From NCBI GenBank assembly GCA_016771945.1, contig QZLF01000002.1:868001-932000 (forward strand): a stretch of 64,000 nucleotides of DNA, given 5' to 3'. Positions 37,611-61,132 of the stretch are shown in pieces. The notes beneath the pieces were generated by a model, which was given only the letters and a program-made list of their open reading frames with translations, was not told the DNA's origin and did not search any database. The stretch comes from Candidatus Leucobacter sulfamidivorax. GTDB lineage: Bacteria; Actinomycetota; Actinomycetes; Actinomycetales; Microbacteriaceae. The position numbers and the translations under genes were made by a program. Each line of letters starts with the position of its first letter. Position 1 is the stretch's first letter.

Positions 37611-37640
37611 GCCGAGTCGCACGGCCTCTCCTCCGAGAAC

Positions 37641-37681
37641 GAAGGCCCGGCCCCGGGGGCACACTCCGAGACCGGGCCTTC
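37641..37681. terminator. bidirectional terminator between CGS and nitrilase genes
   Basis: GAAGGCCCGG and CCGGGCCTTC form a perfect 10-bp stem with a 21-base loop between two convergent genes, and it marks the left edge of the nitrilase island. Confidence 0.65.
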
Positions 37682-37697
37682 GGCATGGTGCTCCGGC

Positions 37698-38735
37698 CTA
37701 GCTCGCGTTCTCGCTCGGCCCCAGCGCCACGACCGCGGGATCCGCGATCGCGGCGGCATGGCCCGGAGCGTCGCCGTGACCGGCGTCCGCCGGCGCGGAC
37801 ACGGGGCGCTGCGGGGAGGCGTCGAACACCAACCGGGTCACGTCCGGGCGCGCGTAGTGGCCGGCCGGATCGACGATGTTCTTCGCGATCGCGATGTCGT
37901 CGAGCGAGATGTCCGCGTACACGATCCCTTCCACCGTCGGATCGAGCGGTTCGGTCAGCAGCTGACCCATCGGACCGTACACGCGAGCGTATCCGCCGCC
38001 TCCCGTGTAGACGAGGCACGGACCGCCGTCGGCGTCGGGGAACGCCAGGGCGCCCTCGTCGCTCATGATCTGCGTGCTCATCAGCGTGAACCCGCCGCCT
38101 TCGAGGGAATAGGTCTGCGAGGCTGAGATCAGCGCCTCCGGGCTGAGAGCGGGGACGTTCGCGAGGATGCCGAGGCAGGGCCAGCCGGCGACGTGGATCT
38201 GCTCGTTCTGCGCGTACATGGCGTACTTCGTGAGCGGCTGGATGTGCTCGAAGCAGTTGAGCGCGCCCAAACGGCCGAACGGGGTGTCGACGACCCTGAT
38301 GCCGCTGCCGTCGCTCTCGCCGAAGAGGCTGCGCTCCGCGTGCGTCGGCTTCAGCTTGCGGCGGTGGAGCGCGATCTCGCCCTCGTCGTCGATGATGACC
38401 TGCGACATGTAGAGCGAGCCGTGGTCCTTCTCGGAGAGGCCGAGGACGACCCAGATGCCGGCCTCGCGGGCGGCCTTGCGGATCGCGGCGACCTCCGGCC
38501 CGTCGATGGTGGGGGAGTTCGCGTGGTAGCGGGCGACATAGGGAACCTGGAACGGGACGGGATAGCTCCAGAGGAACACCGGGTACCCCGGGATCCAGGT
38601 CTCGGGGAAGGCGACGAGCTCTGCTCCTTCGGCCGCCGCCTCCTTGATGAGCGCGATCGTCTTCTCTGTCGTCGCCGCCATATCGAGCCAGACCGGCTCT
38701 GCCTGAACGGTTGCGACGCGAACGTTCTTCTCCAT
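37698..38735 (-). CDS. nitrilase (island copy 1)
   Basis: 345 residues, carbon-nitrogen hydrolase. Catalytic triad candidates are Glu45 (FPETWIPGYP), a Lys in RRKLKPTHAER (127 or 129) and Cys161 in GALNCFEHIQPL. True nitrilases carry CWEH at this site; Phe replaces Trp here. It should convert an organic nitrile to acid and ammonia. ATG 38735 follows GGAAGGAAC. A low-complexity Ala/Gly/Asp C-terminus follows the core. Divergent from the RbsABC-like operon. Confidence 0.88.
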   Translation of the reverse strand: MEKNVRVATVQAEPVWLDMAATTEKTIALIKEAAAEGAELVAFPETWIPGYPVFLWSYPVPFQVPYVARYHANSPTIDGPEVAAIRKAAREAGIWVVLGLSEKDHGSLYMSQVIIDDEGEIALHRRKLKPTHAERSLFGESDGSGIRVVDTPFGRLGALNCFEHIQPLTKYAMYAQNEQIHVAGWPCLGILANVPALSPEALISASQTYSLEGGGFTLMSTQIMSDEGALAFPDADGGPCLVYTGGGGYARVYGPMGQLLTEPLDPTVEGIVYADISLDDIAIAKNIVDPAGHYARPDVTRLVFDASPQRPVSAPADAGHGDAPGHAAAIADPAVVALGPSENAS

Positions 38736-38804
38736 GTGGATCTGTTCCTTCCGGGTCTCGGTCGCCTCATCCTCGGTCCTGCCGGGGGCGCGCGCAAGGC
38801 CGCC

Positions 38805-38856
38805 ACAACCGTTCGTTGTATCCCCATTGCCGAGCCGATGGCGCGCAGGACATCGT
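38805..38856 (+). promoter_or_regulatory. conserved island regulatory element, copy 1
   Basis: Dyad ACAAC-CGTTC-GTTGT (38805-38819) followed by ATCCCC and, 38 bases from the dyad start, GCGCAGGACATCGT (38843-38856). It lies ~50 bases before the RbsA-like start. The same element with the same spacing recurs at 42863-42914. Confidence 0.65.
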
Positions 38857-38906
38857 TGGCTCCGCACGCACCTCCGATACGCACTCCCGCGAAAGGCGAC
38901 GTCTCC

Positions 38907-40571
38907 ATGGCCGACCCCACTCCACGCCGCTCGGCCGGGTTCTCTCCCGGTACGGAGGAGGGGCACGGCCGTCCCCCGCGGCTGGAGGTGCGGAACCTGT
39001 CGAAGACGTTCGCCGGCGTGACCGTCCTGGAGCGGGCCGGCCTGACGATCGAGTCTGGGGAGATCCACGCCCTGGTCGGGCAGAACGGCTCCGGCAAATC
39101 GACGCTGATCAAGCTGATCTCGGGCGTGCACAGCCCCGACGCCGGTGGCGAGATCCGGCTCGACGGCGAACGCATCGGGCCTCCGGTCGACCCGAAGGCG
39201 CTGCACGCCCAGGGCCTCTCCTTCGTCCATCAGGATCTCGGACTCGTGCCCGACCTGACGGTCCGCGAGAACGTGCGTGTCGGGCGTCATGCGATGAACC
39301 GGTTGACGCGCCGCATCGATGTCCGGAGGGACGCCGAGGCCGTGCGCGCGACCTTCGAATTCCTGGGGATCGAGGACATCGACCCGTCCGCCCGGGTCTC
39401 GACGCTTCCCCCCAGTGCCAGAGTGGCCGTCGCGATCGCCCGCGCTCTTCAGGACCGGCGGCCGGGCAGCGGTGTTGTCGTCTTCGACGAGTCCTCTCGC
39501 GCGGTCCCGCGTGAGGCGCTGCCGGGCTTCTACCGGATGATCCGACTCCTCGCCGGGCAGGGCACCGCGGTGCTGATGGTGAGCCACGACCTCAAGGAGG
39601 TGCTCGACATCGCGGATCGCGCGACAGCGCTCCGCAATGGTCGGGTGGTCGAGACGGGCATCCCCACGAGCGAGCTCGACGAAGCGCGGCTGACGAGTCT
39701 CGTGCTCGGCCGGGCCGCGGATCTCGGCGACATCATGCGGGAGGTGGTCACGGCGCCCCGGGGGGAGTCCGTGGAACTCGCCGGGGTCGCCGGCGGACGC
39801 ATCGCGGGCGTCGACGCCGTCGTCCGCAGGGGAGAGGTCGTCGGGTTCACCGGCACCGTGGACTCCGGGCTCTCGGATCTCGGGCCGCTCCTGGGAGGAG
39901 ACCGTCGCGGCTCCGGCACGGTCGGGCTCCCTCGCCGTTCGCTCGACCTCGCCCGCTGCAAGGCGATCGATCTGCTCTCCGCCGGCGTGGCCTTCATACC
40001 CGCGGATCGTCATGGCAAGGGGCTCGCGCTCGAACTCTCGGTCGAGGAGAACTCGACCCTGCCGCGCATCCGCACGCGCGGAAAGCCATGGTGGACGGGA
40101 GTGCGTTGGCGCCGGGAGGAGACGGATGAGATCATCGACCGCTTCGATATCCGTCCGCGAAGCCGGAGCATCCCCATCGCCTCGCTGTCGGGCGGCAACC
40201 AGCAGAAGGTGCTCCTTGGCAAATGGCTCTTGGGCGACCCCGTCCTGCTCGTGCTCGACGACCCCACGCAGGCCGTCGACGTCGGAGCCCGCCACGCGAT
40301 CCTGACGGAGACCCGGAGGGCGGCCACCGCCGGCGCGGCGGTCGTCGTGTGCTCCGCCGAGGTCGACGACCTCGCAGCGGTCTGCGACCGCGTGCTCGTC
40401 CTCGAGGACGGCGTCGTCGCCCGTGAGGTCGTGCGCCCCTTCGACCCTGATTCCCTGCTCGCCGCGATCTTCGACGCGGACGCCGTCCCGACCGTCGGAG
40501 TCGGTGCCGGGAAGACGGCAACAGCGGGAACCGGTTCCAACGACACTCCGCGAATGAGGCTCGACGAATGA
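38907..40571 (+). CDS. RbsA-like dual ABC ATPase
   Basis: 554 residues, two tandem ATPase domains as in sugar importers. The first has Walker A GQNGSGKST (58-66), but its signature is degenerate (LPPSARVAVA in place of LSxGxxQ) and its Walker B reads VVVFDESS. The second has the usual degenerate Walker A (GFTGTVDSG) and an intact LSGGNQQ. Catalysis probably uses one composite site. GAAAGG precedes ATG 38907; the permease start overlaps its stop by four bases. Family suggests a sugar or sugar-like ligand, but the context suggests otherwise. Confidence 0.88.
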   Translation: MADPTPRRSAGFSPGTEEGHGRPPRLEVRNLSKTFAGVTVLERAGLTIESGEIHALVGQNGSGKSTLIKLISGVHSPDAGGEIRLDGERIGPPVDPKALHAQGLSFVHQDLGLVPDLTVRENVRVGRHAMNRLTRRIDVRRDAEAVRATFEFLGIEDIDPSARVSTLPPSARVAVAIARALQDRRPGSGVVVFDESSRAVPREALPGFYRMIRLLAGQGTAVLMVSHDLKEVLDIADRATALRNGRVVETGIPTSELDEARLTSLVLGRAADLGDIMREVVTAPRGESVELAGVAGGRIAGVDAVVRRGEVVGFTGTVDSGLSDLGPLLGGDRRGSGTVGLPRRSLDLARCKAIDLLSAGVAFIPADRHGKGLALELSVEENSTLPRIRTRGKPWWTGVRWRREETDEIIDRFDIRPRSRSIPIASLSGGNQQKVLLGKWLLGDPVLLVLDDPTQAVDVGARHAILTETRRAATAGAAVVVCSAEVDDLAAVCDRVLVLEDGVVAREVVRPFDPDSLLAAIFDADAVPTVGVGAGKTATAGTGSNDTPRMRLDE

Positions 40572-41602
40572 ACACGACATCCCGGACCGACACGACGACA
40601 TCGGACACGGTCTCCTCCCGCGTCCCGGTCGGTCGACCGCGCCGAAGCACCTGGGCGCGGTCGGGATCGTACGTCCTGCAGCGCTACAGCCTGGTGGTCC
40701 TGTGGGCGCTGATGGTCGCCCTCTTCGCATTGCTCCTGCCTCAGGGGCTGGATCTCGGACAGGCCGGTCGCGCGGTGCTCGGTCAGCAGACGCCGGTGGT
40801 CTTCCTCGGCCTCGCGACGGTGATCACCCTCGCGGTCGGAGAATTCGATCTGTCCTTCGTCTGGATCTACGGTCTCGCCGGCACGCTCTTCTCCTCGCTC
40901 GTCGTGCTCCACGGCTGGCCGGTGCTCGCGGCGGTGCTCGCGGCGCTCGCCGCGGCGGTGGTCGTGGGGCTGCTCAACGCGGTGTTCGTGGTGCTGATCG
41001 GCGTCAACTCGATCGTGGTCACTCTGGGAACCGGCAGCGTCGCCTACGGCGCCGCGCTGCTGGTCTCGAATCAGGCCAACGTCTCCGGCCTCGATCCCGC
41101 GCTCTCGCAGATCTCCGTCGCACCGATCCTCGGTCTGCCCGCGGTCTTCTGGTACGGGGTGATCCTCGTCGCCCTGACCGCGTACATCATGAGCGCGACA
41201 CCTCTCGGGCGGGCGATGCTGTTCGTCGGGGCCAACCGCGGCGTGGCCCGCCTCGCCGGCATCTCGGTGACGCGCGTCCGCTTCGGGGCCTACCTCGTAT
41301 CGGCGCTGCTGTGCGGTCTCATCGGCGTCATCCTCGCCTGCGGCATCGGCGGCTTCCAGGTCTCCACCTCCCAGGTGCAGCTGCTGCCGGTGTTCGCGGC
41401 GGTGTTCCTCGGAACCGTGGCGGTGGTCCCCGGCCGTTTCAACCCGGTCGGCATGATCATCGCGGCGTACTTCCTGCTCACCGGAGTCTTCGGGCTGCAG
41501 CTGTTCGGTGCGACGGGCTGGGTGACCAACATCTTCTACGGCTGTGTTCTGGTCGCCGCCGTGACGATCTCCCTGGTCGCGCAGCGCCGTTCGCGCGGCT
41601 GA
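40568..41602 (+). CDS. RbsC-like ABC permease
   Basis: 344-residue membrane permease of the ribose/AI-2 family with about ten helices. It has the coupling region GRAMLFVGANRGVARLAGISV typical of RbsC. ATGA overlap with the ATPase gene shows coupled translation. The first ~35 residues are polar. It forms the membrane channel for the adjacent binding protein. Confidence 0.88.
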   Translation: MNTTSRTDTTTSDTVSSRVPVGRPRRSTWARSGSYVLQRYSLVVLWALMVALFALLLPQGLDLGQAGRAVLGQQTPVVFLGLATVITLAVGEFDLSFVWIYGLAGTLFSSLVVLHGWPVLAAVLAALAAAVVVGLLNAVFVVLIGVNSIVVTLGTGSVAYGAALLVSNQANVSGLDPALSQISVAPILGLPAVFWYGVILVALTAYIMSATPLGRAMLFVGANRGVARLAGISVTRVRFGAYLVSALLCGLIGVILACGIGGFQVSTSQVQLLPVFAAVFLGTVAVVPGRFNPVGMIIAAYFLLTGVFGLQLFGATGWVTNIFYGCVLVAAVTISLVAQRRSRG

Positions 41603-41655
41603 CCGGCTGAACGACTTCTCGAACCCCCACTCACCACGATGAACGGAGAACCCGC

Positions 41656-42831
41656 ATGAACAAGAGACTACGGCTGACGCTGGGCAGTGCGGCCCTCGTG
41701 GCCGCCCTCATCACCGCCGGCTGCTCGGGAGGCGCGTCGCCCGACGACGACGGTCCCGCCGCGACACCGGGGGACGATACCGCTGCGGCGGAGACGGCGG
41801 CGGCCCAAGCGGTGGTGGACGAGGCGACGCAGCCCGTCGCGGGCTTCACCGCGCCCGGGCCCGCCTTCGACACCTCCGGGATCCAGGGCGGCACGGTCTA
41901 CTACGTCATTCCGGCCCTCGAAGCGGCGGTGTTCCAGACCTACGCGGAGGAGCTCGAGGAGAGCTTCCGCCCCTTCGACATCGGAATCCAGCAGTGCGGC
42001 ACGAACGGCGGCAGCCCGGACGGCATCGCCAACTGCCTGCAGCAGGCGGTCGACTCGGGCGCCAGCGCGGTCATCGCGCTGGGAATCCCCTACGTGCTCT
42101 CGCCGACCGGTTTCGACAAGGTGGGGGAGGCCGGCATCCCGGTGCTCTACGGCCTGACCGGATCGGACGGCGAAGGCGAGCCGGAGCGCGTGGCCTACTT
42201 CTCCCCGAACTTCTTCGAACTGCAGGCGTGGAACGCCCAGTGGGTGATCGCCGACTCGGGCGCGAGCGCGAACGTGCTCGTCATCGAGGAGACGGACAAC
42301 CCCGCCGTCCAGGCCTGGACGCTTCAGGGGTCGATGCCCGCGTACGAGAACGGCTGCAGCGCCTGCGTCGTCAAGAAGATCACCGCCTCGACCGCGCAGC
42401 TCGACAAGCTCACCACCGACGTCACCGCCGCCCTCGTCGCGAACCCGGATATCGCGTACGTGCAGGCGCCCGCGGGTGCCTACGTCTCGGCGATCATCGC
42501 CGGGCTGCAGGGGGCGGGGAAATCTCCGAACGAGGTGAATGTCGGCTCCATGGACATGAACCTCGCCGAGCTGAACCAGCTGCAGCAGGGCCAGTGGCTC
42601 ACGAACGTGGGCGGCACCGACTTCGGCGCGAGCGCCTGGTACATGACCGATCAGGTTCTCCGGATGCTGGCCGGCGAGCCGTCGCTGAGGGGCGTGGAGT
42701 TCCCGTACCAGCGGCTCTTCACCCGTGACAACACGGCCGATCTCGAGTCGAGCGAGGCCGCGTGGAAGAGCGGGGCATGGTTCGGGTCGACGGATTATCG
42801 CGAGGGGTTCACGGAGCTCTGGGGCCGCTAG
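41656..42831 (+). CDS. substrate-binding lipoprotein of the RbsABC-like importer
   Basis: 391 residues with a lipoprotein signal (lipobox LITAGC, Cys near residue 23), a Ser/Asp/Ala linker and a type I periplasmic-binding fold like RbsB. ACGGAGAACC lies before ATG 41656. Several extra Cys residues (CGTNGG, NCLQQ, CSACVV) occur in the mature domain. The ligand is not identifiable; the gene completes the three-component importer. Confidence 0.87.
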   Translation: MNKRLRLTLGSAALVAALITAGCSGGASPDDDGPAATPGDDTAAAETAAAQAVVDEATQPVAGFTAPGPAFDTSGIQGGTVYYVIPALEAAVFQTYAEELEESFRPFDIGIQQCGTNGGSPDGIANCLQQAVDSGASAVIALGIPYVLSPTGFDKVGEAGIPVLYGLTGSDGEGEPERVAYFSPNFFELQAWNAQWVIADSGASANVLVIEETDNPAVQAWTLQGSMPAYENGCSACVVKKITASTAQLDKLTTDVTAALVANPDIAYVQAPAGAYVSAIIAGLQGAGKSPNEVNVGSMDMNLAELNQLQQGQWLTNVGGTDFGASAWYMTDQVLRMLAGEPSLRGVEFPYQRLFTRDNTADLESSEAAWKSGAWFGSTDYREGFTELWGR

Positions 42832-42862
42832 ATGCGCGCCGCGTCCGCCCGCAAGGGCCACC

Positions 42863-42914
42863 ACAACGGTTCGTTGTATCCCCGTTGTCGCGCAGGGGAG
42901 GCGCAGGACATCGT
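42863..42914 (+). promoter_or_regulatory. conserved island regulatory element, copy 2
   Basis: ACAAC-GGTTC-GTTGT (42863-42877), ATCCCC, then GCGCAGGACATCGT (42901-42914) 38 bases from the dyad start, exactly as in copy 1. It lies ~40 bases before the serine hydrolase gene that heads the second operon. Confidence 0.65.
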
Positions 42915-42952
42915 GGGGTCGGAGCTCACTTCCACACATATGAAAGGTAGCT

Positions 42953-44125
42953 ATGTCTGACACACAGGAGACATCGGTCTTCTCTTCGAAGCAGGCCGCG
43001 CGGATCGCGGAGACGATCGAGGCCGAGATCGCGGGGGGCGCCTACTTCGGTGCCGCCCTCTCGATCAGGCTTCGCGGCGAGTCGGTCTTCGAGACCGCGT
43101 TCGGTTCGCGTGCCCCCGGGCAGGCCGCGCTCGAATTCGACGACGTGTTCCGCGTCCTCTCGCTGACGAAGCTGTTCACCAACGTGCTGGTCCTGCAGTG
43201 CATCGGGCGGGGAACCCTCTCCTTCAACACCCCGGTGGTCGAGATCATCCCCGAGTTCCTCGGCGAGGACCGCTTCCGCGCGGCGAAGAAGGATCTCGTG
43301 ACGATCGCCCACCTGCTCAACCACACCGCGGGGCTCCCGGTCACGCCGACCCCGCTGCCGTACGAGCGCTTGGGCTCGCTGCCCGATGTCATCGGCGCGA
43401 TCTGCGGCATGGACGTGGTCTCGACGCCCGGCGAGGACCTGATATACTCCCCGGCCGTCAACCACGCGCTGCTCGGAGAGATCGTGCGTCGGGTGCACGG
43501 AGCCTCCCGATTCGGCGACGTGCTCACCCGCGAGCTGATCGAGCCGCTCCGGCTGACCTCCACGCAACTGGGCAACCCGGGCGGGCGCGACGTCGTCCCG
43601 CTCATCGCGAACTTCGGCAGCGTGGCCTGGCTGAAGGCGGATGACATCGAGATCCTCAACGAGGTCGTCGACGGCGACAACGAGCTGCCGTGGGTCGGCA
43701 TCACGACCTCGGTCGCCGACGTCATGAAGCTCGCGGAGGGGCTGCGTCGCGCAGGGCTCGGCGAGGCCGATCCGATCATCCCGTCGGCCGTGCTGGACAA
43801 GGCCACGCGGAACACCACGGGAGACCAGCCGAACGATCTCCTCCGTCGCGTCGCCGAGGGCCGCGGCTGGGAGATCCGCCCCGGATATCTCGGGCTGGGG
43901 TTCCCGCTCGCCGGCGAGGGCACGGCCCCGAACATGTTCGGCACGCTCACCTCTCCGCGCACCTACGGGGCGTTCGGGGCCGGCTCCAGCCTGGTCTGGG
44001 TCGATCCCGAGCGGCAGCTCAGCTTCGCCTGCCTGACGAGCGGCGTGATGGCGGAGGATGCGAACATCCTGCGCTTCCAGAGACTGTCGGACATGGCCGT
44101 CGCCGGCCTCGAAGGGAGCCGCTGA
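42953..44125 (+). CDS. beta-lactamase-fold serine hydrolase
   Basis: 390 residues of the class C beta-lactamase/esterase family. The SxxK motif is Ser70-Leu-Thr-Lys73 (LSLTK), and the tyrosine motif is Tyr164 in YSPAVNH (a variant of YxN). HLLNHTAGLP is family-typical. No signal peptide, so it is cytoplasmic, fitting an amide, lactam or ester hydrolase in a catabolic pathway rather than antibiotic resistance. GAAAGG lies upstream. One base separates it from the monooxygenase gene. Confidence 0.85.
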   Translation: MSDTQETSVFSSKQAARIAETIEAEIAGGAYFGAALSIRLRGESVFETAFGSRAPGQAALEFDDVFRVLSLTKLFTNVLVLQCIGRGTLSFNTPVVEIIPEFLGEDRFRAAKKDLVTIAHLLNHTAGLPVTPTPLPYERLGSLPDVIGAICGMDVVSTPGEDLIYSPAVNHALLGEIVRRVHGASRFGDVLTRELIEPLRLTSTQLGNPGGRDVVPLIANFGSVAWLKADDIEILNEVVDGDNELPWVGITTSVADVMKLAEGLRRAGLGEADPIIPSAVLDKATRNTTGDQPNDLLRRVAEGRGWEIRPGYLGLGFPLAGEGTAPNMFGTLTSPRTYGAFGAGSSLVWVDPERQLSFACLTSGVMAEDANILRFQRLSDMAVAGLEGSR

Positions 44126-44126
44126 G

Positions 44127-45239
44127 ATGCTGCGCGAGAGTATTCAGGGGAAGTTCCACGTCGGGTGCTTCTTTCCGAACGGGAAGACGGGCGCCGTCTT
44201 CTCCGACTACCTGCTCGAGGTGAACCCCGAGCCGAACGCCCAGTCGCTTCTCGGCCTGGCCCGATCCTGCGAGAGCATCGGGCTGGACTGGGTGCTGATC
44301 GCCGACGGGTGGGTCGGCCTCGACCGACTCTCGGAGTCGCTGCAGCACGCTTCGCCGATGCTGCACGCGCCGACCCTCGGAGCGGTGCTGCTCGCGGGCA
44401 CCGAGCGGATCGGCGTCGTGACCACCATGCACACCGACATCCACAAGCCGGCTCACGTGGCCCGCATCGGGGCCTCGCTGGACGCGATCGGCGGAGGCCG
44501 CTGGGGCTGGAACATCGTCACCGATCAGCCGAACCAGGCGCCCCTCTTCGGGCAGACGCCCCTTCCCCACGACGATCGCTACGAGATCGCCCAGGAGTTC
44601 ACCGACCACGTCAAGGAGCTCTGGCACAACGAGGAGCCGATCGACGTTCGCGGCGAGTACTACACGGTGAGGGGGCGACTCAAGACTCCCCACATCGTGC
44701 AGCGCCCGCATCCGCTGCTGGTGAACGCGGCCGCGTCGCCCGCGGGCATGAGGTTCGCCGCCCGCCACTGCGATGTCCTGATGACCTCCGCGCCGACCGT
44801 CGAGCACGCCGCCCAGGTGCGGGCGACGATGGACGAGCTGCTGGTCGAGGCCGGCCGGGAGCCCCATGAGCTCGATGTCGTCGTGACCGGGAAGTGCCTC
44901 GTGCGACCGACCCAGGCCGAGGCCGAGGACGAGTGGGCGCGGATCGTCGATCGCCTCAACATCGACGTGGCGCTCGATCAGCTGGGCACCATGTACAGCG
45001 GCGATGCCGCGATGCCTGCGCGGGAGGCGGATCGCGAACTGCTCGAGGCCGCGCGTCGCGTCGGCGAGGGGGCCTGGTTCAACGACATGGTCGGATCGCC
45101 GGAGACGGTCGCCGAGCGGTTGATCGCCCTGCGGGAGGTCGGCATCGCCGGCATCGCCATGCAGTTCCTGCGGTGGAGCGACAGTGACGTCCGTCAGCTC
45201 GCCCCCGCGCTGGAGATCTTCCGGCGGGAGAGCGCGTAG
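44127..45239 (+). CDS. SsuD/RutA-like FMN-dependent monooxygenase
   Basis: 370-residue LLM barrel. LDAIGGGRWGWNIVT, HDDRYEIAQEFTDHVKELW and VNAAASPAGMRFAARHCDV place it with alkanesulfonate/pyrimidine/sulfone monooxygenases (SsuD, RutA, SfnG group). RutA opens the uracil ring at an amide bond, which would fit the adjacent hydrolase and nitrilases; SsuD-like desulfonation is the alternative. GAAGGGAG precedes ATG 44127. Needs FMNH2 from elsewhere. Confidence 0.85.
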   Translation: MLRESIQGKFHVGCFFPNGKTGAVFSDYLLEVNPEPNAQSLLGLARSCESIGLDWVLIADGWVGLDRLSESLQHASPMLHAPTLGAVLLAGTERIGVVTTMHTDIHKPAHVARIGASLDAIGGGRWGWNIVTDQPNQAPLFGQTPLPHDDRYEIAQEFTDHVKELWHNEEPIDVRGEYYTVRGRLKTPHIVQRPHPLLVNAAASPAGMRFAARHCDVLMTSAPTVEHAAQVRATMDELLVEAGREPHELDVVVTGKCLVRPTQAEAEDEWARIVDRLNIDVALDQLGTMYSGDAAMPAREADRELLEAARRVGEGAWFNDMVGSPETVAERLIALREVGIAGIAMQFLRWSDSDVRQLAPALEIFRRESA

Positions 45240-45295
45240 GCGCGGACGCGGCGCCCCCGCACGACAGAAGAAACATCCGATTGAGGAGGAAGACA

Positions 45296-46552: not shown

Positions 46553-46567
46553 GACCGGGAGTTCTCG

Positions 46568-47425: not shown

Positions 47426-49184
47426 CCGGATGGTCCGCGCCGCGGCGGCCCCCCTGATCGCGGGGGGCGTCATGCTGCTGCTCGGCCTGGTCCTGCCGCC
47501 CTACTTCCAGTTCGTGGGAGCGCTCGCGGCCCAGCAGGCGATCATCGGCCTCAGCATCGGGGTCGTCTACAACCTCGCCGGCATGGTCTCGCTCGCGCAG
47601 GTGTCGCTCAGCGCGATCGGCGCGTGGACCGCGATCGCGGTGTCGCAGTCGCTGCTTCCCGACGCCTATCCCTGGACGGCCCTGATCGCGGGCGCGGTCG
47701 CCGTGCCGGTCGGGATCCTCGTCGGGCTGCCCGCGCTCCGACTGCGCGGCATCAGCCTCGCGATCGTCACGCTCGGCTTCGTCGTCATCATCTATCAGCT
47801 CTCCTCGCTCGGGTTCATCCCCGGCAGCTCGCCTCTCGACTTCCTGAGCGCACCCGCGTGGACCATGACGAATGCGGGCTTCTACGTCATCGCCTGGACG
47901 AGCTTCACCGTGCTCGCCGTGCTGTTCGCGATCGTGAAGCGCACGCGGATGGGCCTGGGCTGGACCGCCGTCGCCTCGAGCGAACGGGCAGCGGCGTCGC
48001 TCGGCGTGGGCATTCTCACCGCGAAGCTGACCGCCTTCGGATTCTCCGCCTTCATCGCCGGGTGGGGAGGCGCGGTGCTCGTAGCGGCCTTCGGCACCAC
48101 GAATGTGGAATCGTTCTCGGCGATAACGGCGATGACCATGTTCGTGCTCGCGGTCATGGTCGGCGCGGGCCACTGGGAAGGGGCGCTGATCCTCGGGCTG
48201 CTGGGCGCGATCGTGGGCGCCGTGCTGCGCCAGTTCGACCTGCCCGCGGATCTCAGCGCGCTGATCTTCGCCGTCGGCGCCATCGACGTGCTCAGCCGCG
48301 GGAAGGGAGGGATCTCGGTGCTGCTGCGTCGCGCGGCGCGGCGCCTGCGCGGCCCCCGGAAGGCGGCGTCCGATACCAGCGGTGCGCCGCCCGGGTCCGC
48401 CGCCGCGGGCGCCGAACCGCCGGGCCCGGACGGCATCGGCGGCATCGATTTCGAGACCGCGGCGCTGGAGGTCGATGGGCTGGCCGTCGCCTACGGCACC
48501 GTCAAGGCGCTCGACGGGGTGTCGATCGCGATCGCACGGGGCGAGGTGCACGGCATCGTCGGGCCGAACGGGGCCGGCAAGTCGACCTTCGTGGACGCCG
48601 TGACCGGCTTCATCGCCGGCTGCGCCGGTCACGTGCGCGTCGGAGGATGCCCGCTCGACGCGCAGACCCCGCAGGCGCGGAGCCGGTTGGTGAGACGGAC
48701 GTTCCAGCAGGACCGCGCCATCGCGGCCCTCGCACCGTTCGACTATCTGCGGCTGGCGGGTCAGGGACGCAGTTCCGACCAGGAGATCCGGGAGCTGCTC
48801 CGATGGATCGGCTGCTCCGAATCCGCTCTGCAGGTCGAGGATCTCGACACTCGGCAGCGGCGGAACCTCATGATCGCCGCGGCGCTCGCCGGGAAGCCCG
48901 AGGTCGTGCTGCTCGACGAGCCGGCGGCCGGGCTCACCGAGGAGGAATCGGTGCACCTGACGGAGCTCGTGAGCGAGATGCCCGGGCGCTTCGGGGTGTC
49001 GGTGGGGATCATCGAGCACGACCTCGACCTCGTGCGGGCCGTATGCCATCGCGTCACGGTGCTGGACTTCGGCCGGGTTCTCTCGACAGGTCCCACCGCG
49101 GCGGTTCTCGAAGAGCCGGCCGTCGTGCGCGCCTACATGGGCGACCTGGACATCGAGCCGGCGGACGGGGGAGCGAATGCCTGA
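47403..49184 (+). CDS. Liv-type permease-ATPase fusion (LivM-LivG)
   Basis: 593 residues: a LivM permease (about 1-310, VYNLAGMVSLAQVSLSAIGAW; EAA-like SSERAAASLGVG), a Gly/Ala/Pro linker (about 320-355), and a LivG ATPase with Walker A GPNGAGKS and Walker B VVLLDEPAAGL. The ABC signature reads LDTRQRRNL instead of LSxGxQ. LivM-LivG fusions are known in actinobacteria. It overlaps LivF by eight bases. Confidence 0.9.
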   Translation: MRGLSPGSRMVRAAAAPLIAGGVMLLLGLVLPPYFQFVGALAAQQAIIGLSIGVVYNLAGMVSLAQVSLSAIGAWTAIAVSQSLLPDAYPWTALIAGAVAVPVGILVGLPALRLRGISLAIVTLGFVVIIYQLSSLGFIPGSSPLDFLSAPAWTMTNAGFYVIAWTSFTVLAVLFAIVKRTRMGLGWTAVASSERAAASLGVGILTAKLTAFGFSAFIAGWGGAVLVAAFGTTNVESFSAITAMTMFVLAVMVGAGHWEGALILGLLGAIVGAVLRQFDLPADLSALIFAVGAIDVLSRGKGGISVLLRRAARRLRGPRKAASDTSGAPPGSAAAGAEPPGPDGIGGIDFETAALEVDGLAVAYGTVKALDGVSIAIARGEVHGIVGPNGAGKSTFVDAVTGFIAGCAGHVRVGGCPLDAQTPQARSRLVRRTFQQDRAIAALAPFDYLRLAGQGRSSDQEIRELLRWIGCSESALQVEDLDTRQRRNLMIAAALAGKPEVVLLDEPAAGLTEEESVHLTELVSEMPGRFGVSVGIIEHDLDLVRAVCHRVTVLDFGRVLSTGPTAAVLEEPAVVRAYMGDLDIEPADGGANA

Positions 49185-49878
49185 TGCGCTGGAAGTGTCC
49201 CGCGTGAGCATCGACCGCGGCGGCACCGGGGTGGTGAGGGATGTCTCGCTCCGGTGCCCGCGCGGAGAGGTGACCGTGCTGCTCGGCGCCAACGGCGCGG
49301 GGAAGACGACCCTGCTCGACGGGATCGCCGGTGTCGTCCCCCTGCGGTCGGGGATGGTCCGCCTGGACGGTCGGGAGTTGACCGGCGCGCGCCGCGGGAT
49401 CGTGGGGTCGAAGCTCGCCTACGTGGAGCAGGGCCGTACGGTCTTCGCGGAGCTGAGCGTGATCGACAATCTCAGAGCGGTCTCCGCGGACTCGTCCATC
49501 ATGGATCGGGTGCTCGGCCTCTTCCCCGAGCTCCGCGCCCGGCTGGATGTCGAAGTGGGGCTGCTCTCCGGCGGCGAGCAGCAGATGGTGGTGCTCGCGC
49601 GGGCGATCTGCGCCGATCCGGAGATCATCCTCATCGATGAGATGTCTCAGGGGTTGGCGCCGGTCGTCGTCCGGCGGCTCATGCCGATCATCCGCGAACT
49701 CGCCGACGCCGGCACCGCGGTGCTGCTCGTCGAGCAGTTCGCGAACCTCGCGCTTCGCGTGGGAGACCGGGCCTATGTGATGTACGTGGGCGGCGTCGTG
49801 CTGGAAGCCGAGTGCGCGCAGCTGATCGCGGAGCCGGAGGTGCTGAGGGACGCGTACCTCCGCGGTCACCGATCCTGA
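49177..49878 (+). CDS. Liv-type ATP-binding protein LivF
   Basis: 233-residue ABC ATPase, LivF type. Walker A GANGAGKT, signature LLSGGEQQ and Walker B IILIDEMSQGL are all intact, unlike the fused LivG domain. The family phrase YVEQGRTVFAELSV is present. Last gene of the island's second operon; its end overlaps the convergent LysR gene by 13 bases. Confidence 0.92.
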   Translation: MPDALEVSRVSIDRGGTGVVRDVSLRCPRGEVTVLLGANGAGKTTLLDGIAGVVPLRSGMVRLDGRELTGARRGIVGSKLAYVEQGRTVFAELSVIDNLRAVSADSSIMDRVLGLFPELRARLDVEVGLLSGGEQQMVVLARAICADPEIILIDEMSQGLAPVVVRRLMPIIRELADAGTAVLLVEQFANLALRVGDRAYVMYVGGVVLEAECAQLIAEPEVLRDAYLRGHRS

Positions 49879-50798
49879 GCGCCTCGGCTCGCCTTCGGGA
49901 TCGCCCTGGCACCGGCCAGCCCGCTGAGGAAGGAGATCACGGTGTCGGCGACGCTCCGCTTCACCCGATCCTCCTCGTTCACGCCGTCGAGCACGATCAC
50001 CTCGCTCATCGGATCGCCGTCGAGGGGGACGAGCGTGACGAGCGGGTGCGGGAAGAAGTCCGCATGGCTCATCGGGGCGGTCACGAGCGCGAGGCGAGCC
50101 GCGACCATCTCGTTCGCCTCGGCGGGATTGCGCACGTCGGTGAGCTGAGGATCGCCGAGCCGTGCGAGCGCGCCGCCGCGGAACGAGTCGAGCCGTCCCA
50201 CCTGCGGCCATGCGCTCGGCAGGCTGCGGCCCGCGAGGAAGACCTCGCCGAGCACCTGCTCGGGATGGATGCTGCGCGCAGGGGCGAGCCGGTGCGAGCG
50301 GGGGAGGAGCACTCCGAGCCGTTCGGTGTAGAGCGAGACCGAGGCCCATCCGGGCACGGTCAGCGGACCGAAGGTGATGACGAGGTCGGCGAGGCCGTAG
50401 GCGAGCGTGCGGTCGAGCTGATCGAAGTTGAGCTGACGGATCCGGATCCTGGTCTTCGGGAGCCGATGCCGCAGGATGCCGATCGAGCCGACCGCGGCGG
50501 GGCTCGTGACGCCGATGACGAGGCTGCCGTCGTCCCACGGCTCCTGCGAGGCCAGGCGAGCCGCATCCGCGTTGCTCACGATCTCCGACAGCGCCTCGTA
50601 GATCGCCTTGCCGTGCCGATTGAGCCGGATGCCGCCGGGGGACCGGTCGAGCAGCTCGCGACCGACATTCGCCTCCACCCGACGTATCGCCGCGCTGATG
50701 CCCTGCTGGGTGATGAAGGAGCTCTGTGCCGCGCGCGACATGCTGCCGGCCTCCACTGCTGCGAGCAGAAGTCGGATGTCGTCCACTCGAAGGGTCAT
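49866..50798 (-). CDS. LysR-family transcriptional regulator
   Basis: 310 residues: N-terminal winged helix (about 5-62, AAVEAGSMSRAAQSSFITQQ) and a C-terminal effector domain (LVIGVTSPAAVGSIGI). ATG 50798 overlaps the stop of the upstream AraC-type gene (ATGA), so the two regulators are co-expressed. Likely controls the nitrilase island; the effector is unknown. The first helix-turn-helix residues are slightly unusual (ISAAIRRVEANVG) but in range. Confidence 0.87.
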   Translation of the reverse strand: MTLRVDDIRLLLAAVEAGSMSRAAQSSFITQQGISAAIRRVEANVGRELLDRSPGGIRLNRHGKAIYEALSEIVSNADAARLASQEPWDDGSLVIGVTSPAAVGSIGILRHRLPKTRIRIRQLNFDQLDRTLAYGLADLVITFGPLTVPGWASVSLYTERLGVLLPRSHRLAPARSIHPEQVLGEVFLAGRSLPSAWPQVGRLDSFRGGALARLGDPQLTDVRNPAEANEMVAARLALVTAPMSHADFFPHPLVTLVPLDGDPMSEVIVLDGVNEEDRVKRSVADTVISFLSGLAGARAIPKASRGAQDR

Positions 50799-51760
50799 CG
50801 AGGCACCTCCCCGGACCGGTCCTCCCCGGCCGCGGCCCGACCCCCGGCGGCCTGCCTCCTCCACTCGCTCGGGGTCATCCCGAAGTGGGAGGCGAACAGC
50901 CTGGAGAAGTGTGCGGCGTCGTTGAAGCCCCGTCTCGATCCGATGGCGGCGACGGTCCAGTGTCGGAGCTTCTCATCGTGGAGGTCGGCAGCCGCCCGGT
51001 CCAGACGCACATGCCTCACCAGGGTGTTGACGGTGGCATCCGAGCGGCGGAATGTCCGATGCAGGTGTGCGAGAGACACGTGGAGCCCCCTCGCGATGCG
51101 GCCCGGGTTCAACCCGGGATCGTCGGCGTGCGCCTCGATGTAGGCGCGTGCGCGGTCGAGCAGCTCCGCGGCCCGGTCGGGTCTGGTTCCACTCGAGAAG
51201 GAGAGCGAGAGGAGGTCCAGCGCGGACTGGGCCAGCCGCTCGGCGTGGACCACCTCCGCGTCGTGAATCGAATCCGGGATGGCGGTCAGGAGAGCTCCCA
51301 CCGCCGGGCCGATGCCGTTCCTCCCGGGGATTCGCACGGCGGTCCGGCGGAGCAACGAGGTCGTCACGGACGAGTCGGCGGGCGCCGCCTGCAGGACGGC
51401 CTGTCGGTGGTCGCCGCTGGGGAAGATCAGATCGTAGGGTCGACTCGCGTCGTAGAGCGCCATGTCTCCGGGCTGGAGCACGGCCTCCCGGCCGTCCTGC
51501 TTCACCACGCAGTTCCCGCGGAGCTGCACCGAGACCAGCAGGCTGCCGTCCTCGTCGCCGGAGCGCGACCGGCGCACCAGGTGGGGCTCTCCGAGCACCT
51601 CCACCGTCGCGGCCCGCACTCGTCCCCTCGTCTCGCTGCACATCTTCGCGCGCAGGTAGGCCGTGGACCCCAGGGGTTCGACGTCGAGGTTGAAGAACGA
51701 GCTGCAGAGGCGCTCCCGCCACCCGGCGAGGTCGACCTGCTCCTGCACCTCTGGCGTCAT
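50795..51760 (-). CDS. AraC-family transcriptional regulator
   Basis: 321 residues: an N-terminal AraC-binding-like domain (LQPGDMALYDASRPYDLIF) and a C-terminal double helix-turn-helix (RGLHVSLAHLHRTFRR, then RGFNDAAHFSRLFASHFGMTPSEWRR). This FeaR/NbaR-like layout often controls catabolic operons. ATG 51760 with AGGGAG upstream is preferred; GTG 51766 is possible. Divergent from nitrilase 2, which it probably activates. Confidence 0.88.
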   Translation of the reverse strand: MTPEVQEQVDLAGWRERLCSSFFNLDVEPLGSTAYLRAKMCSETRGRVRAATVEVLGEPHLVRRSRSGDEDGSLLVSVQLRGNCVVKQDGREAVLQPGDMALYDASRPYDLIFPSGDHRQAVLQAAPADSSVTTSLLRRTAVRIPGRNGIGPAVGALLTAIPDSIHDAEVVHAERLAQSALDLLSLSFSSGTRPDRAAELLDRARAYIEAHADDPGLNPGRIARGLHVSLAHLHRTFRRSDATVNTLVRHVRLDRAAADLHDEKLRHWTVAAIGSRRGFNDAAHFSRLFASHFGMTPSEWRRQAAGGRAAAGEDRSGEVPR

Positions 51761-51886
51761 GATCACTCCCTGATCGGAGACTGCTGGTCAATCATTATGA
51801 CACTGTCGCGCATGAGAATCCCTTCCCGCCCTTGGAATGATGATCGGGAGGCGAGCGAATCGCCGAAGGTCATCGAAGGAGAGGCA

Positions 51887-52933
51887 ATGTCCGACGTTCT
51901 TCCATTCACAGCAGCCGCAGTCCAGGCCGAGCCCGCCTGGCTCGACGTCAAGGCCGGCGTCGAGAAGGCCGAGAGCCTCATCGCGGAGGCGTCCCGCAAG
52001 GGCGCCCGGCTCATCGCCTTCCCGGAGACCTGGATCCCCGGGTATCCGCATTTCCTGTGGCTCGGCCCGCAGGCCGCCGGCATGCGGTTCGTCCCCGCTT
52101 ACCACCAGAACTCGATCGTCGTCGGAGACGAGCACTACGAGCGCCTGGCCGCCGCTGCGGCGAAGCACGGCATCACCGTCGTGATGGGCGCGAGCGAGCG
52201 CGACCAGGGGTCGCTCTTCATGTCCCAGTTCGTCTTCGGCGCCGACGGCTCCACCGTCGCCAACCGTCGGAAGCTCAAGCCCACCCATGTGGAGCGCGCA
52301 CTCTTCGGAGAGGCGGACGGCAGCAATATCGCAGTCCACGACGTCGAGGGGATCGGCAGACTGGGCGCTCTGAACTGCTGGGAGCACCTGCAGCCGCTGA
52401 CCAAGTACGCGATGTATGGCCTCGGCGAGCAGGTCCATGTCGCCTCTTGGCCGTCGTTCTGCCTCTACCGAGGAGGTGCGCACGCGCTGGGCGCGGAGGT
52501 GAACATGGCGGCGAGCCAGGTCTATGCAGTCGAGGGCGGCTGCTTCGTACTCGCCGCCACCACGGTGACGGGTGAGGCCGGGATGGAACTGTTCGCCGCG
52601 ACCGAGGAGCAGCGCGCCCTGCTCGGAGGCGGAGGAGGGGGTTCGAGCCGCATCTACGGCCCCGACGGACGTCTGCTCACCGATCCCATCCCCGAGGACG
52701 AGGAAGGGATCGTCTACGCCGAGATCGATCTGTCGATGATCTCTCTCGCCAAGATGGCGGCGGATCCGACGGGCCATTACTCCCGCCCCGACGTCACGCG
52801 GCTGATCGTCGACCGCACCGTCCGCCGCCCTGTCGAATACCTCGACGAGGGGAGCCGCCCCCGGCCCGATGCGGGTGCGCGCGAGGGTTCCACCGAGAGC
52901 GTCGATAATGCGTCGGAGAATCCGGCGAACTGA
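51887..52933 (+). CDS. nitrilase (island copy 2)
   Basis: 348 residues. Glu47 (FPETWIPGYP), a Lys in RRKLKPTHVER (129/131) and Cys164 in GALNCWEHLQP form the nitrilase triad. The CWEH motif is canonical, unlike copy 1. Spacing matches characterised aromatic/arylaliphatic nitrilases. AAGGAGAGG precedes ATG 51887. The OsmC gene follows 13 bases on. Divergent from the AraC-type regulator. Substrate class (aryl versus alkyl nitrile) is open. Confidence 0.92.
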   Translation: MSDVLPFTAAAVQAEPAWLDVKAGVEKAESLIAEASRKGARLIAFPETWIPGYPHFLWLGPQAAGMRFVPAYHQNSIVVGDEHYERLAAAAAKHGITVVMGASERDQGSLFMSQFVFGADGSTVANRRKLKPTHVERALFGEADGSNIAVHDVEGIGRLGALNCWEHLQPLTKYAMYGLGEQVHVASWPSFCLYRGGAHALGAEVNMAASQVYAVEGGCFVLAATTVTGEAGMELFAATEEQRALLGGGGGGSSRIYGPDGRLLTDPIPEDEEGIVYAEIDLSMISLAKMAADPTGHYSRPDVTRLIVDRTVRRPVEYLDEGSRPRPDAGAREGSTESVDNASENPAN

Positions 52934-52946
52934 AAGGAGAAGGCCA

Positions 52947-53408
52947 GTGAGAGAAGTGAAGACCGCCACCGCGACCGCGACGTCCGGGCTCAAGATGGAA
53001 TGCGTGACCGCCCATCACGAGTTCGTCATCAGCGGGGCGCCCACCATGGGAGGGAATGGGCGCGGAGTCGATCCGGCGGAGACGCTGATCGCCGCTCTGG
53101 GCGCATGCGCTCTGGTCATCGCGAAGTCCTTCGCGCCGTTGAAGGGCATCGATCTGACCTCGATCAGCGTCGATGTCGTCGGGGAGTTCGACGACTACGG
53201 CTTCGAGTTCCTGCAGCAGGAGGTCAAGTCTTCCCGGGTCGGCTATTCCCGGATCTCCAGCACCTATCGCATCGAGTCGAAGAACTCGGCGGAGGAGGTC
53301 GAGGAATTCATCAGGTTCGTCGAGGGGAACTGCCCCGTCAGGGACACGCTCGAAGCTGCTCCGGAGTTCGCGACCTCCGTGGTCCACACGGCGGCCGCCG
53401 CGAGCTGA
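52947..53408 (+). CDS. OsmC-family protein
   Basis: 153 residues, OsmC/Ohr fold with both redox cysteines, Cys54 (LGACALVIAKSFA) and Cys129 (GNCPVRDTLE). These proteins reduce organic hydroperoxides. Behind a nitrilase and ahead of a monooxygenase it may remove peroxides leaked by flavin chemistry. GTG 52947 with GAAAGGAGAAGG upstream is the start. Confidence 0.85.
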   Translation: MREVKTATATATSGLKMECVTAHHEFVISGAPTMGGNGRGVDPAETLIAALGACALVIAKSFAPLKGIDLTSISVDVVGEFDDYGFEFLQQEVKSSRVGYSRISSTYRIESKNSAEEVEEFIRFVEGNCPVRDTLEAAPEFATSVVHTAAAAS

Positions 53409-53429
53409 GAGTCGGGGGTCCGGTGCTCG

Positions 53430-53457
53430 TGCGCCCGGTGCTGATGCGCCGGGCGCA
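53430..53457 (+). terminator. stem-loop between OsmC and monooxygenase genes
   Basis: TGCGCCCGG (53430-53438) and CCGGGCGCA (53449-53457) form a perfect 9-bp stem with a ten-base loop 21 bases after the OsmC stop. No T run; may terminate or stabilise the transcript. Confidence 0.45.
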
Positions 53458-53553
53458 TGAGCGTCGACGAAGTCGGCATTGGAGGCGCCCCGCACGCCGG
53501 CCCTACCATCGCAAGTGCCGATCGGCAAGAACTCGAAAGTCGGAGGTCGTGTA

Positions 53554-54933
53554 ATGAGTATCGTCCTGGGTGCATTCTTCAATCTGAACCCCAACGGCCT
53601 GGTCGGCACGAGCTGGAGGCATCCCTCGAACACCTCGCTGGAATACCTGACGATCGACTACTGGACCGACATCGCGCGGGAGCTCGAGTCGGGCGGATTC
53701 GACATCATGTTCTTCGCCGACAACTACGGGTACCCCACGGACCGCGAAGGGAACCTCATCGCGCGAGCGGTGACCGATGCCACGCACTTCCCCATGGGCG
53801 ATCCGATCACGCTGGTCTCGGCGGTCGCCGCGGCGACCACGACCCTCGGCGTCGTCGTGACCTCGTCGACCACGGTCGAGCGCGCTCCCGCGGTCGCCCG
53901 TCGGTACGGAACCCTGGATCACCTTACTCGAGGGCGCATCGGCTGGAACATCGTGACGGGCGCTGCGCAGGCAGCCGTCGGAGACCTCTTCGGGGAGGAG
54001 CCGCTGCCGCACGACGCGCGATACGAGCAGGCCGAGGAGCATCTCGCAGTGTGCCTGCGGCTCTGGGAGCAGTCCTGGGAGGCCGGTGCGCTCCGCGAGG
54101 ACAAGGCGGCGAGCGTCTTTGCCGACGGCGACGCGGTGCACCGGGTCGAGTTTGAGGGCCGTTACGTGCGTACGCGCGGGGCGTTCCCGCTCCCGCCCTC
54201 GCCGCAGCGGACCCCGTTCCTCGTGCAGGCGGGAACCTCCGAAGCGGGCAAGAACTTCGCGGCGAAGTATGCCGAGCTCGTCTTCGTCGCGGGCGTGGAC
54301 GCTCCGACCATCGCCGGGCACGTCACCGACCTGCGCGCGCGAGCAGTCGAGAACGGTCGTCCGGCGGACGGCATCAAGATGCTCGCGGGTGCCTACTTCG
54401 TGCTCGACTCGGATGACGAGGGCGCCCGCGCGAAGTATCAGGACATGATGAGCTACACGAACATCGAACAGGCCGCGACCTATTTCGCGTGGGCGACGGG
54501 CATCGATCTCGCCGGATACCCCCTCGACGAGCCGATGCCAGACCTGGGGACGAACGAGGGGCAGTCGATCCTGGCGGGCTTCCAGAATCTGGCGGAGGGC
54601 CGCAACGCGACGCCGCGCGAGATTCTGGAGCGCATCCGCGACCAGGGGATCAACGGCATGGTGTTCGTCGGCGGGCCCGAGACCGTCGCCGACGAGGTCG
54701 AGAAGTTCCTCGACGAGACGGAGATCGACGGCTTCCTCCTGCAGCCGTTCATCAGCCCTCAGACCTATCGCGACTTCATCGAGCACCTGGTGCCGATGCT
54801 GCGCAGCCGCGGCATCATGTCGGAGGAGAAGGAGCCGACCACGCTGCGGCGGAAGGTGTTCCCCGACGGCGGCGACCTGCTTCCTGCCGAGCACCCGGGG
54901 GCGCAGCTTCGTGCCCGGGTCCGACAGGCCTGA
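53554..54933 (+). CDS. NtaA-family FMN-dependent monooxygenase (island)
   Basis: 459-residue LLM barrel of the NtaA/SnaA/DszA branch: GFDIMFFADNYGY, LDHLTRGRIGWNIVTG, PSPQRTPFLVQAGTSEAGKNFAA. Members cleave C-N or C-S bonds. It is the last plus-strand island gene. CGGAGG lies before ATG 53554. About 145 bases separate it from OsmC, so it may have its own promoter. Convergent with metQ copy 2. Confidence 0.87.
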   Translation: MSIVLGAFFNLNPNGLVGTSWRHPSNTSLEYLTIDYWTDIARELESGGFDIMFFADNYGYPTDREGNLIARAVTDATHFPMGDPITLVSAVAAATTTLGVVVTSSTTVERAPAVARRYGTLDHLTRGRIGWNIVTGAAQAAVGDLFGEEPLPHDARYEQAEEHLAVCLRLWEQSWEAGALREDKAASVFADGDAVHRVEFEGRYVRTRGAFPLPPSPQRTPFLVQAGTSEAGKNFAAKYAELVFVAGVDAPTIAGHVTDLRARAVENGRPADGIKMLAGAYFVLDSDDEGARAKYQDMMSYTNIEQAATYFAWATGIDLAGYPLDEPMPDLGTNEGQSILAGFQNLAEGRNATPREILERIRDQGINGMVFVGGPETVADEVEKFLDETEIDGFLLQPFISPQTYRDFIEHLVPMLRSRGIMSEEKEPTTLRRKVFPDGGDLLPAEHPGAQLRARVRQA

Positions 54934-54960
54934 GGCCGGGCCCGGGCCGAACCACGATGC

Positions 54961-55884: not shown

Positions 55885-56013
55885 GATGTTCTTCCTTGCT
55901 TTCTGATGGTGGTCTCGATGGTGGGAGTCGCTCGGGTTCCGGGCGCGCGGGCATGGCGGATCGGGCCCGGGATCGCGCCGGGACCGGATCCTGGGATCTC
56001 GACGGTGCAGCTA

Positions 56014-56938: not shown

Positions 56939-56941
56939 TAG
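56414..56941 (+). CDS. IS5/IS427 transposase, C-terminal part (orfB)
   Basis: After a +1 (or -2) shift at the A6 run, the family sequence continues as GDSSNYKNLLTEPLDHAVG and THQLVDGQGLPLVTLCTAG. It carries the second Asp (LGDKAYSSRKNREYL) and the catalytic Glu in NVIERGYCRLKQWRGLATRY. The DDE triad is complete across the two frames. Its TAG stop (56939-56941) is formed by the target-site duplication, just outside the element. Confidence 0.85.
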   Translation, partial: RDSSNYKNLLTEPLDHAVGRSRGGLSTKTHQLVDGQGLPLVTLCTAGQDGDSPMFVPLMEHVQIGRRTRPDAVLGDKAYSSRKNREYLREHRVEAVIPEPRDQQAHRKRRGRTGGRPPKFDAEKYRGRNVIERGYCRLKQWRGLATRYDKLAVVYRAAVVLNGVVAWLNYLRDTP

Positions 56942-61077: not shown

Positions 61078-61132
61078 GAAGCCAAGGGTAGACGAGCGGC
61101 GCCCCGGCCCGCCGCCAGATGAATGAATATGA

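Follow-up and report, generated by a model that had tools for sequence, protein, structure and literature searches.

Two nitrilases, two luciferase-like monooxygenases (LLMs), a beta-lactamase-fold hydrolase, an OsmC-family protein and two ABC importers lie together in a 17-kb island of the genome of Candidatus Leucobacter sulfamidivorax, and the question that this locus raises is whether they make up a single catabolic system. An earlier sequence-only reading had proposed one pathway that imports an N-rich, cyano- or amide-bearing compound, opens it oxidatively and hydrolyses it. The window analyzed was a stretch of 64,000 nucleotides (nt; contig C2, 868001–932000) from an assembly of 3.84 Mb in 11 contigs, with a completeness of 94.2% and a contamination of 4.8%; coordinates are positions within this window unless prefixed C2. 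On balance, and with moderate confidence, we favor two units side by side: a co-regulated unit for import, oxidation and hydrolysis, and a neighboring nitrile unit.

A repeated element before rbsA and before bla

The evidence that carries this view lies in two intergenic gaps, one between the divergent genes nit1 and rbsA and the other between rbsB and bla. Both carry a common 78-nt stretch, identical without gaps at 61 of 78 positions (left block 30/34, middle 10/16, right 12/14 and last part 9/14), the left block of which contains the 15-bp palindrome ACAAC-N5-GTTGT. Elsewhere in the window, no 78-nt stretch came closer to copy 1 than 40/78, and the ungapped score between the two gaps was 44, against maxima of 15 and 14 in 100 and 200 mononucleotide shuffles, respectively. 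A 23-nt core, with up to three mismatches, occurred twice in the window and never in 100 dinucleotide shuffles; genome-wide, an 18-nt core with up to two mismatches was found exactly at both copies (its reversed control gave no match), and a 21-nt version at the same tolerance was present in one of 299 family genomes, the host itself. Copy 1 lies 62 nt from the start codon of nit1. Before nit2, neither the window search nor the genome-wide core search found the element. A riboswitch or other RNA at these positions was considered and rejected, as Rfam gave nothing at E 1 for 37500–56000 and the folding was not unusual (z values of 0.13 and −1.03).

The element would be an operator/promoter module common to rbsACB and bla-llm1-liv, and possibly also serving nit1. 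Because it stands both before rbsA and before bla, the Rbs importer and bla-llm1-liv, with nit1 as a possible third member, probably answer to a common regulator. The sequence-only reading had allowed that it would fail if the transporters and nitrilases were not co-regulated; a lack of co-regulation was not shown, and the element argues for co-regulation from rbsA through livF, perhaps including nit1.

Gene content of the island

Gene models were delimited by codon-position GC and Pfam matches, and the features are, from left to right:

37698–38735, minus strand: nit1, branch-1 nitrilase (CN_hydrolase, 171.7 bits in the long frame; closest solved chain the nitrilase 8uxu, E 2.9e-97)
38736–38906, no strand: divergent nit1-rbsA gap, the space between gene models
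38798–38875, plus strand: 78-nt element copy 1 (61/78 identical to copy 2; palindrome at 38805–38819)
38907–40571, plus strand: rbsA-like double ATPase (ABC_tran, two stretches)
40568–41602, plus strand: rbsC-like permease (BPD_transp_2)
41656–42831, plus strand: rbsB-like binding protein (Peripla_BP_4, 43.2 bits)
42856–42933, plus strand: 78-nt element copy 2, immediately before bla (match to copy 1)
42953–44125, plus strand: bla, S12/beta-lactamase-fold hydrolase (PF00144, 143.9 bits)
44127–45239, plus strand: llm1, divergent LLM (PF00296, 174.4 bits, frame from 44058)
45296–46552, plus strand: livK-like binding protein (Peripla_BP_6, frame from 45281)
46568–47425, plus strand: livH-like permease (BPD_transp_2)
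47403–49184, plus strand: livM-livG fusion of 593 aa, permease plus ATPase (BPD_transp_2 at 44–289, ABC_tran at 370–508)
49177–49878, plus strand: livF-like ATPase (ABC_tran)
49866–50798, minus strand: LysR-family regulator (HTH_1 and LysR_substrate, frame to 50864)
50795–51760, minus strand: AraC-family regulator, FeaR/NitR-like (FeaR model 131 bits, under the cut-off of 199)
51887–52933, plus strand: nit2, branch-1 nitrilase (CN_hydrolase, 190.4 bits in the long frame)
52947–53408, plus strand: OsmC-family protein (OsmC, 65.7 bits, longer frame from 52869; start codon placed by eye)
53554–54933, plus strand: ntaA, NtaA/DmoA-family monooxygenase (TIGR03860, 435.3 bits)

All genes named by the sequence-only reading proved to be intact open reading frames (ORFs; 15 in the island) with family matches, and most of the names given to them were right. 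The long frames at 37698–40730 (minus) and 50726–52933 (plus) are mostly spurious outside the nitrilases. Spacing is short or overlapping within each proposed operon, which supports the two-unit arrangement: rbsA and rbsC overlap by 4 nt, with rbsB 53 nt after rbsC and bla 121 nt after rbsB; llm1 follows bla by 1 nt, livK follows by 56 nt and livH by 15 nt, with livH/livMG and livMG/livF overlapping; lysR and araC overlap by 4 nt, osmC lies 13 nt after nit2, and ntaA 145 nt after osmC.

Importers and enzymes of the proposed first unit

Both importers are complete, the Rbs/CUT2-type system with a double ATPase, a permease and a binding protein, and the Liv/HAAT-type system with all five domains (LivK, LivH, LivM, LivG and LivF), LivM and LivG being fused. 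The best NCBIfam models for RbsA were of the AraG, YtfR and RbsA types, all below cut-off, and no sugar-specific equivalog cut-off was reached; for the RbsB-like protein, a PDB sequence search at E 0.001 gave no relative. A paralogue of the Rbs ATPase and permease (59–60% identical) is surrounded by a FAD monooxygenase, a glyoxalase/dioxygenase-fold protein and two alpha/beta hydrolases (one FrsA-like), and by this analogy a non-sugar substrate is therefore likely for the Rbs importer. By eye, the first ATPase half of RbsA has LPPSAR in place of an LSGGQ-type signature; three aligned RbsA-like proteins (L075:11251-12783, L054 and L067) deviate there too.

The label of RutA-like, given to LLM1 by the sequence-only reading, did not hold up. 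LLM1 scored 80.5 bits against the RutA model TIGR03612 (cut-off 498.3), below its scores with the SfnG (116 bits) and NtaA/DmoA (169.3 bits) models, and reached no cut-off, so that it is not assignable to TIGR03860 (cut-off 279.7). The best PDB fold matches of its AlphaFold model (pLDDT 92.7) were BdsA, RcaE and HcbA1, followed by SfnG, with RutA at ranks 39–43 (TMq 0.78). By family-model scores and by fold alike, DszA/RcaE/SfnG-type enzymes are a better fit to LLM1 than RutA; RutA-style ring opening is therefore weakly supported and was set aside as the main clue.

LLM1 is also rare. Its closest relative in the collections searched is 44% identical; at E 1e-40 it was found in 2 of 394 class genomes (the host and one at 42%) and at E 1e-30 in 7 of 54 genomes of the genus, including the host (best other 42%), while a single-protein search of the genome-contig collection gave no close relative. 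This collection yielded 54 loci of the LLM1 family, 27–43% identical, in which Nit1, Nit2, BLA and OsmC were searched for at E 1e-8 and an Rbs-type importer was defined by an ATPase of 200 bits plus a permease of at least 100. None of the 54 had a match to Nit1, Nit2, BLA or OsmC, and an Rbs-type importer was present in three, a Liv-type importer in six and a type-B carboxylesterase in 13; in two of the latter (L134 and L135) the LLM is just a fragment at the end of a contig. The LLM adjoins the importer or is one gene away from it in L054 and L092 (Rbs-type) and in L066 and L106 (Liv-type); among the loci compared, only the island has both importers around one LLM. In a phylogenetic tree, LLM1 grouped with 31 LLMs of a clade that has esterases and Rbs-type genes as neighbors, on a long branch with support of 96/89, for which the program warned that long branches were possibly misplaced.

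LLMs are abundant in the host, with 41 first-look candidates in the LLM1 search compared with 2–29 in 53 congeners, and with nine NtaA matches at E 1e-30, NtaA itself included. Very similar LLM proteins in matching neighborhoods were seen between the host and a metagenome-assembled genome of an uncultured Leucobacter (L064/L086 and L066/L133). The contigs of Gordonia, Mycobacterium and Tsukamurella (L088, L134 and L135) gave equal scores for their esterase, reductase and FAH matches, a hint of recent transfer or assembly cross-contamination.

The hydrolase BLA carries S70-x-x-K73 and Y165, the SxxK motif and Tyr of S12 hydrolases, and by eye it lacks an obvious signal peptide. Its relatives are few: 3 of 160 family genomes, including the host, at E 1e-60 (best other 40%), and seven plasmid records at 28–52%. 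Six of these seven were inspected, all with a nearby short-chain dehydrogenase/reductase (SDR) gene, five with a cytochrome P450 (P450) gene, and none with an LLM listed. Because the plasmid relatives lie in SDR/P450 clusters and the best solved relative is a carboxylesterase (8j5v), an ester or lactone would be at least as likely a target as the amide originally proposed.

If these parts act together, the two importers would take up an organic, probably non-sugar compound, or a compound plus its by-product. LLM1 would oxygenate it with reduced FMN from a reductase encoded elsewhere, in a reaction of Baeyer-Villiger type or one cleaving C-S or C-N bonds; BLA would open the resulting ester, lactone or amide, and Nit1 would free ammonia if the compound or its product bears a nitrile. 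Unit 1 would comprise nit1, the divergent rbsA-rbsC-rbsB and bla-llm1-livK-livH-livMG-livF under one regulator. Its most specific form, in which two importers, LLM1, an S12 esterase/amidase and the CFEH nitrilase are governed by one regulator at a genome-unique operator pair, and a nitrile-bearing compound is imported, oxygenated, hydrolyzed and stripped of nitrogen, is put forward tentatively, at low confidence. N-rich, S-bearing and ester-forming substrates all remain candidates. What the analysis delivers is a concrete candidate unit, in which a repeated control element stands ahead of both importers and two enzymes. If the proposal is true, it would add a route for using a small compound and a new flavin monooxygenase branch beside the LLM-esterase-importer clusters of actinomycetes; otherwise, the island is a dissected example of accessory genes lying together.

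The nitrilases and the proposed second unit

Branch-1 nitrilases have a Glu-Lys-Cys catalytic triad and typically the active-site motif CWEH. Both island proteins have the triad (E45/K127/C161 in Nit1, E47/K129/C164 in Nit2) in FPETW, RRKLKP and C-x-E-H contexts, Nit2 with CWEH, whereas Nit1 has CFEH instead. As a sign of a new activity CFEH was rejected, since it recurs in the closest Nit1 orthologue (72–73% identical) and in a distant nitrilase clade; a PMC search for nitrilases with CFEH found no paper. Neither protein reached the cut-off of the Nit6803 equivalog TIGR04048 (502.6), the scores being 232.1 bits for Nit1 and 222.5 bits for Nit2.

Relatives of Nit1 were found in 19 of 299 family genomes, including the host, at E 1e-60, 11 of the others at 57–73% identity. 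The loci of these 11 (3.9–20 kb) had an AraC match in ten cases and an aldoxime dehydratase in seven, but in none was there BLA, LLM1, OsmC or NtaA; one, L041, had a partial Rbs-type match. Nit2 relatives occurred in 7 of 394 class genomes, including the host, at E 1e-80, and in 30 plasmid records. We compared 14 loci (six from class genomes, five of the 30 plasmids and three from the Nit1 search; three with flanks of only 1–1.5 kb): ten had an AraC match (in five of these ten the AraC gene diverges from the nitrilase unit), three had an aldoxime dehydratase, and OsmC and NtaA were absent from all 14. Since in the loci compared the nitrilase relatives mostly keep company with AraC and often with aldoxime dehydratase, and never with BLA, LLM1, OsmC or NtaA, one 17-kb pathway is not supported. 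In the loci compared, the island's gene set was found together nowhere and its homologues have so far been met only separately, an outcome that the sequence-only reading had itself counted against a common system.

By position, the araC gene is divergent from nit2, as in NitR-type arrangements, and nit1 has no AraC neighbor. The right third of the island (araC/lysR and nit2-osmC-ntaA) is best read as a separate nitrilase unit of the NitR kind, in which the NitR-like AraC protein, with LysR, would control nit2-osmC-ntaA, a nitrilase plus a DmoA-like monooxygenase, plausibly for small or sulfur-bearing nitriles. NtaA exceeds the TIGR03860 cut-off, its nearest solved relatives are DmoA (E 6.5e-98) and RcaE (E 7.7e-93), with riboflavin lyase and enzymes acting on nitrilotriacetate (NTA) and ethylenediaminetetraacetate (EDTA) also among its relatives, and in the class it was found at E 1e-105 in 2 of 394 genomes (the host and one at 44%); at E 1e-100 there were no relatives on plasmids. 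GC content at third codon positions (GC3) was 0.854–0.885 in the five genes of the nit2 unit, 0.865–0.951 in unit 1 and 0.906–0.976 in the seven genes of the flanks; this hints weakly that the nit2 unit has a separate origin.

Just upstream of their start codons, the leaders of nit1 and nit2 (about 38747–38768 and 51847–51869, in gene direction) are alike at 17 of 22 nt; the corresponding score between the araC-nit2 and nit1-rbsA gaps, 12, was equaled by 1 of 60 and 8 of 400 shuffles, a weak likeness, neither dismissible nor fit to build on. The araC-nit2 and rbsB-bla gaps scored 10, reached by 31 of 200 shuffles, and 10 was also the best score for the region upstream of the closest Nit1 orthologue, in a comparison without shuffles.

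No aldoxime dehydratase stands beside Nit1 or Nit2, the sole PF13816 matches in the genome being at C2:514565–515453. There, within G000:C2:513366-515453 of the host (L002, L049, L080 and L081), a further nitrilase lies with an AraC gene and an aldoxime dehydratase gene. The family match of the dehydratase is split over two frames, so that the gene may be frameshifted, or this may be an assembly error.

Surroundings of the island

As first described, sulfur genes bound the island, with NlpA/MetN/MetI-type genes and Cys/Met pyridoxal-phosphate (PLP) genes in the flanks. Farther out are three acyl-CoA-dehydrogenase-type genes to the left (26744–30994) and two further LLM genes to the right (58979–61231 and 62616–63890, both minus strand); the variable region is larger than the 17-kb island. 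An insertion sequence (IS)-like element occupies 56010–56942; it has an ORF for a DDE transposase, and its 20-bp inverted ends match perfectly. It separates a MetI-type gene, the end of which falls within the right arm of the element, from an NlpA-type gene, probably a former partner of the MetI-type gene.

Alternative explanations

Several points weigh against a first unit under common control. The element and gene order were found in no other genome (0 of 298 other family genomes for the core), so that the element has no support from a second genome. The repeat may also stem from a partial duplication and not from selection as an operator, although the core of the element is better preserved than its middle. 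The palindrome lacks the T-N11-A spacing of a classical LysR box, the Pfam matches in the island include no flavin reductase, and nit1 may have its own promoter. The weak similarity between the leaders of the two nitrilase genes speaks against a strict split. Finally, the LLM-importer counts have no background rate, and nitrilase loci, too, have matches of Rbs type (L041 and L159) and of Liv type (L155 and L160).

Among the alternatives, organosulfur scavenging is doubtful but deserves consideration, and may overlap with the two-unit reading. Here NtaA and LLM1 would cleave C-S bonds under sulfur starvation, and the nitrilases would act on sulfur-bearing plant nitriles. The flanking NlpA/MetN/MetI-type and Cys/Met PLP genes are consistent with this, as are DmoA as the best PDB match of NtaA and BdsA as the top-ranked fold match of LLM1; in Gordonia NB4-1Y, two genes of ntaA type had higher levels with organosulfur sources than with sulfate (PMC7661421). 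However, neither the window nor the genome core searches found the element at the flanking sulfur genes, the BLA relatives lie in SDR/P450 clusters, and NtaA relatives extend to riboflavin lyase and NTA/EDTA enzymes.

It seems unlikely that scavenging genes with no common pathway came together by chance in a variable region. Such an origin would agree with the separate occurrence of the genes elsewhere, the lack of any LLM1 match above 42% identity among 53 congeners, the many LLM paralogues of the host and the IS-like element just outside the island, but it leaves aside the genome-unique duplicated element that ties two blocks together and the LLM-importer neighborhoods that recur in other genomes and in the host, though as counts without a background rate.

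A single pathway over all 17 kb, with both nitrilases and BLA hydrolyzing one N-rich, cyano- or amide-bearing compound after its import and oxidative opening, is improbable: the 15 ORFs are contiguous between two sulfur-gene blocks, both nitrilases with their weakly similar leaders lie in one island, and nitrilase relatives elsewhere are near Liv-type (L155; L160, with an amidase-like neighbor by eye) or Rbs-type (L159) genes, but an AraC-family gene of its own accompanies the nit2 unit, which lacks the element and has GC3 values that weakly hint at a separate origin, and none of the 54 LLM1-family loci had a nitrilase, BLA or OsmC match. Of the proposed single system, therefore, what stands is the part tied by the element, namely the importers, LLM1, the hydrolase and possibly Nit1.

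Comparison with known systems

No described system with the gene set of the island was recognized in PMC searches for related clusters, and the two-unit reading is best placed beside systems that share parts of it. An AraC-family NitR beside a nitrilase has been described (PMC8955678), and the NitR-nitrilase and nitrilase-aldoxime dehydratase clusters of Rhodococcus, Bacillus OxB-1 and Bradyrhizobium have, like the island, an AraC-family gene adjoining a branch-1 nitrilase. The two genes are divergent on the named plasmids and in the host at G000:C2:513366, and on the same strand in one plasmid record. Unlike these clusters, the island has no aldoxime dehydratase at either nitrilase, carries osmC and ntaA after nit2, and leaves nit1 without an AraC neighbor.

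For unit 1, the actinomycete LLM-esterase-Rbs clusters (Streptomyces chartreusis plasmid NZ_CP108842, Amycolatopsis L092 and Herbiconiux L089) likewise combine an LLM, which belongs to the sister clade, with genes for an esterase and an Rbs-type importer, but LLM1 is only 40–44% identical, the hydrolase is of S12 fold instead of a type-B carboxylesterase, and the island has an extra Liv importer. In the LLM-Liv operons of Micromonospora (L106) and of the host (L066), the LLM is directly followed by Liv-type genes, as in the island, although these LLMs are just 30–34% identical to LLM1 and L106 has no BLA or nitrilase match. With the Rut pyrimidine pathway the island shares the LLM superfamily and fold of RutA, but LLM1 is below the RutA cut-off and no other rut gene is among the family matches of the island.

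Diketocamphane monooxygenases are type II Baeyer-Villiger LLMs. Another LLM that can work in this way is that of the progesterone pdc system (PMC12239570). LLM1 is likened to these enzymes by its two-component LLM type, and by this analogy, acting as a Baeyer-Villiger enzyme, it would yield an ester suited to BLA.

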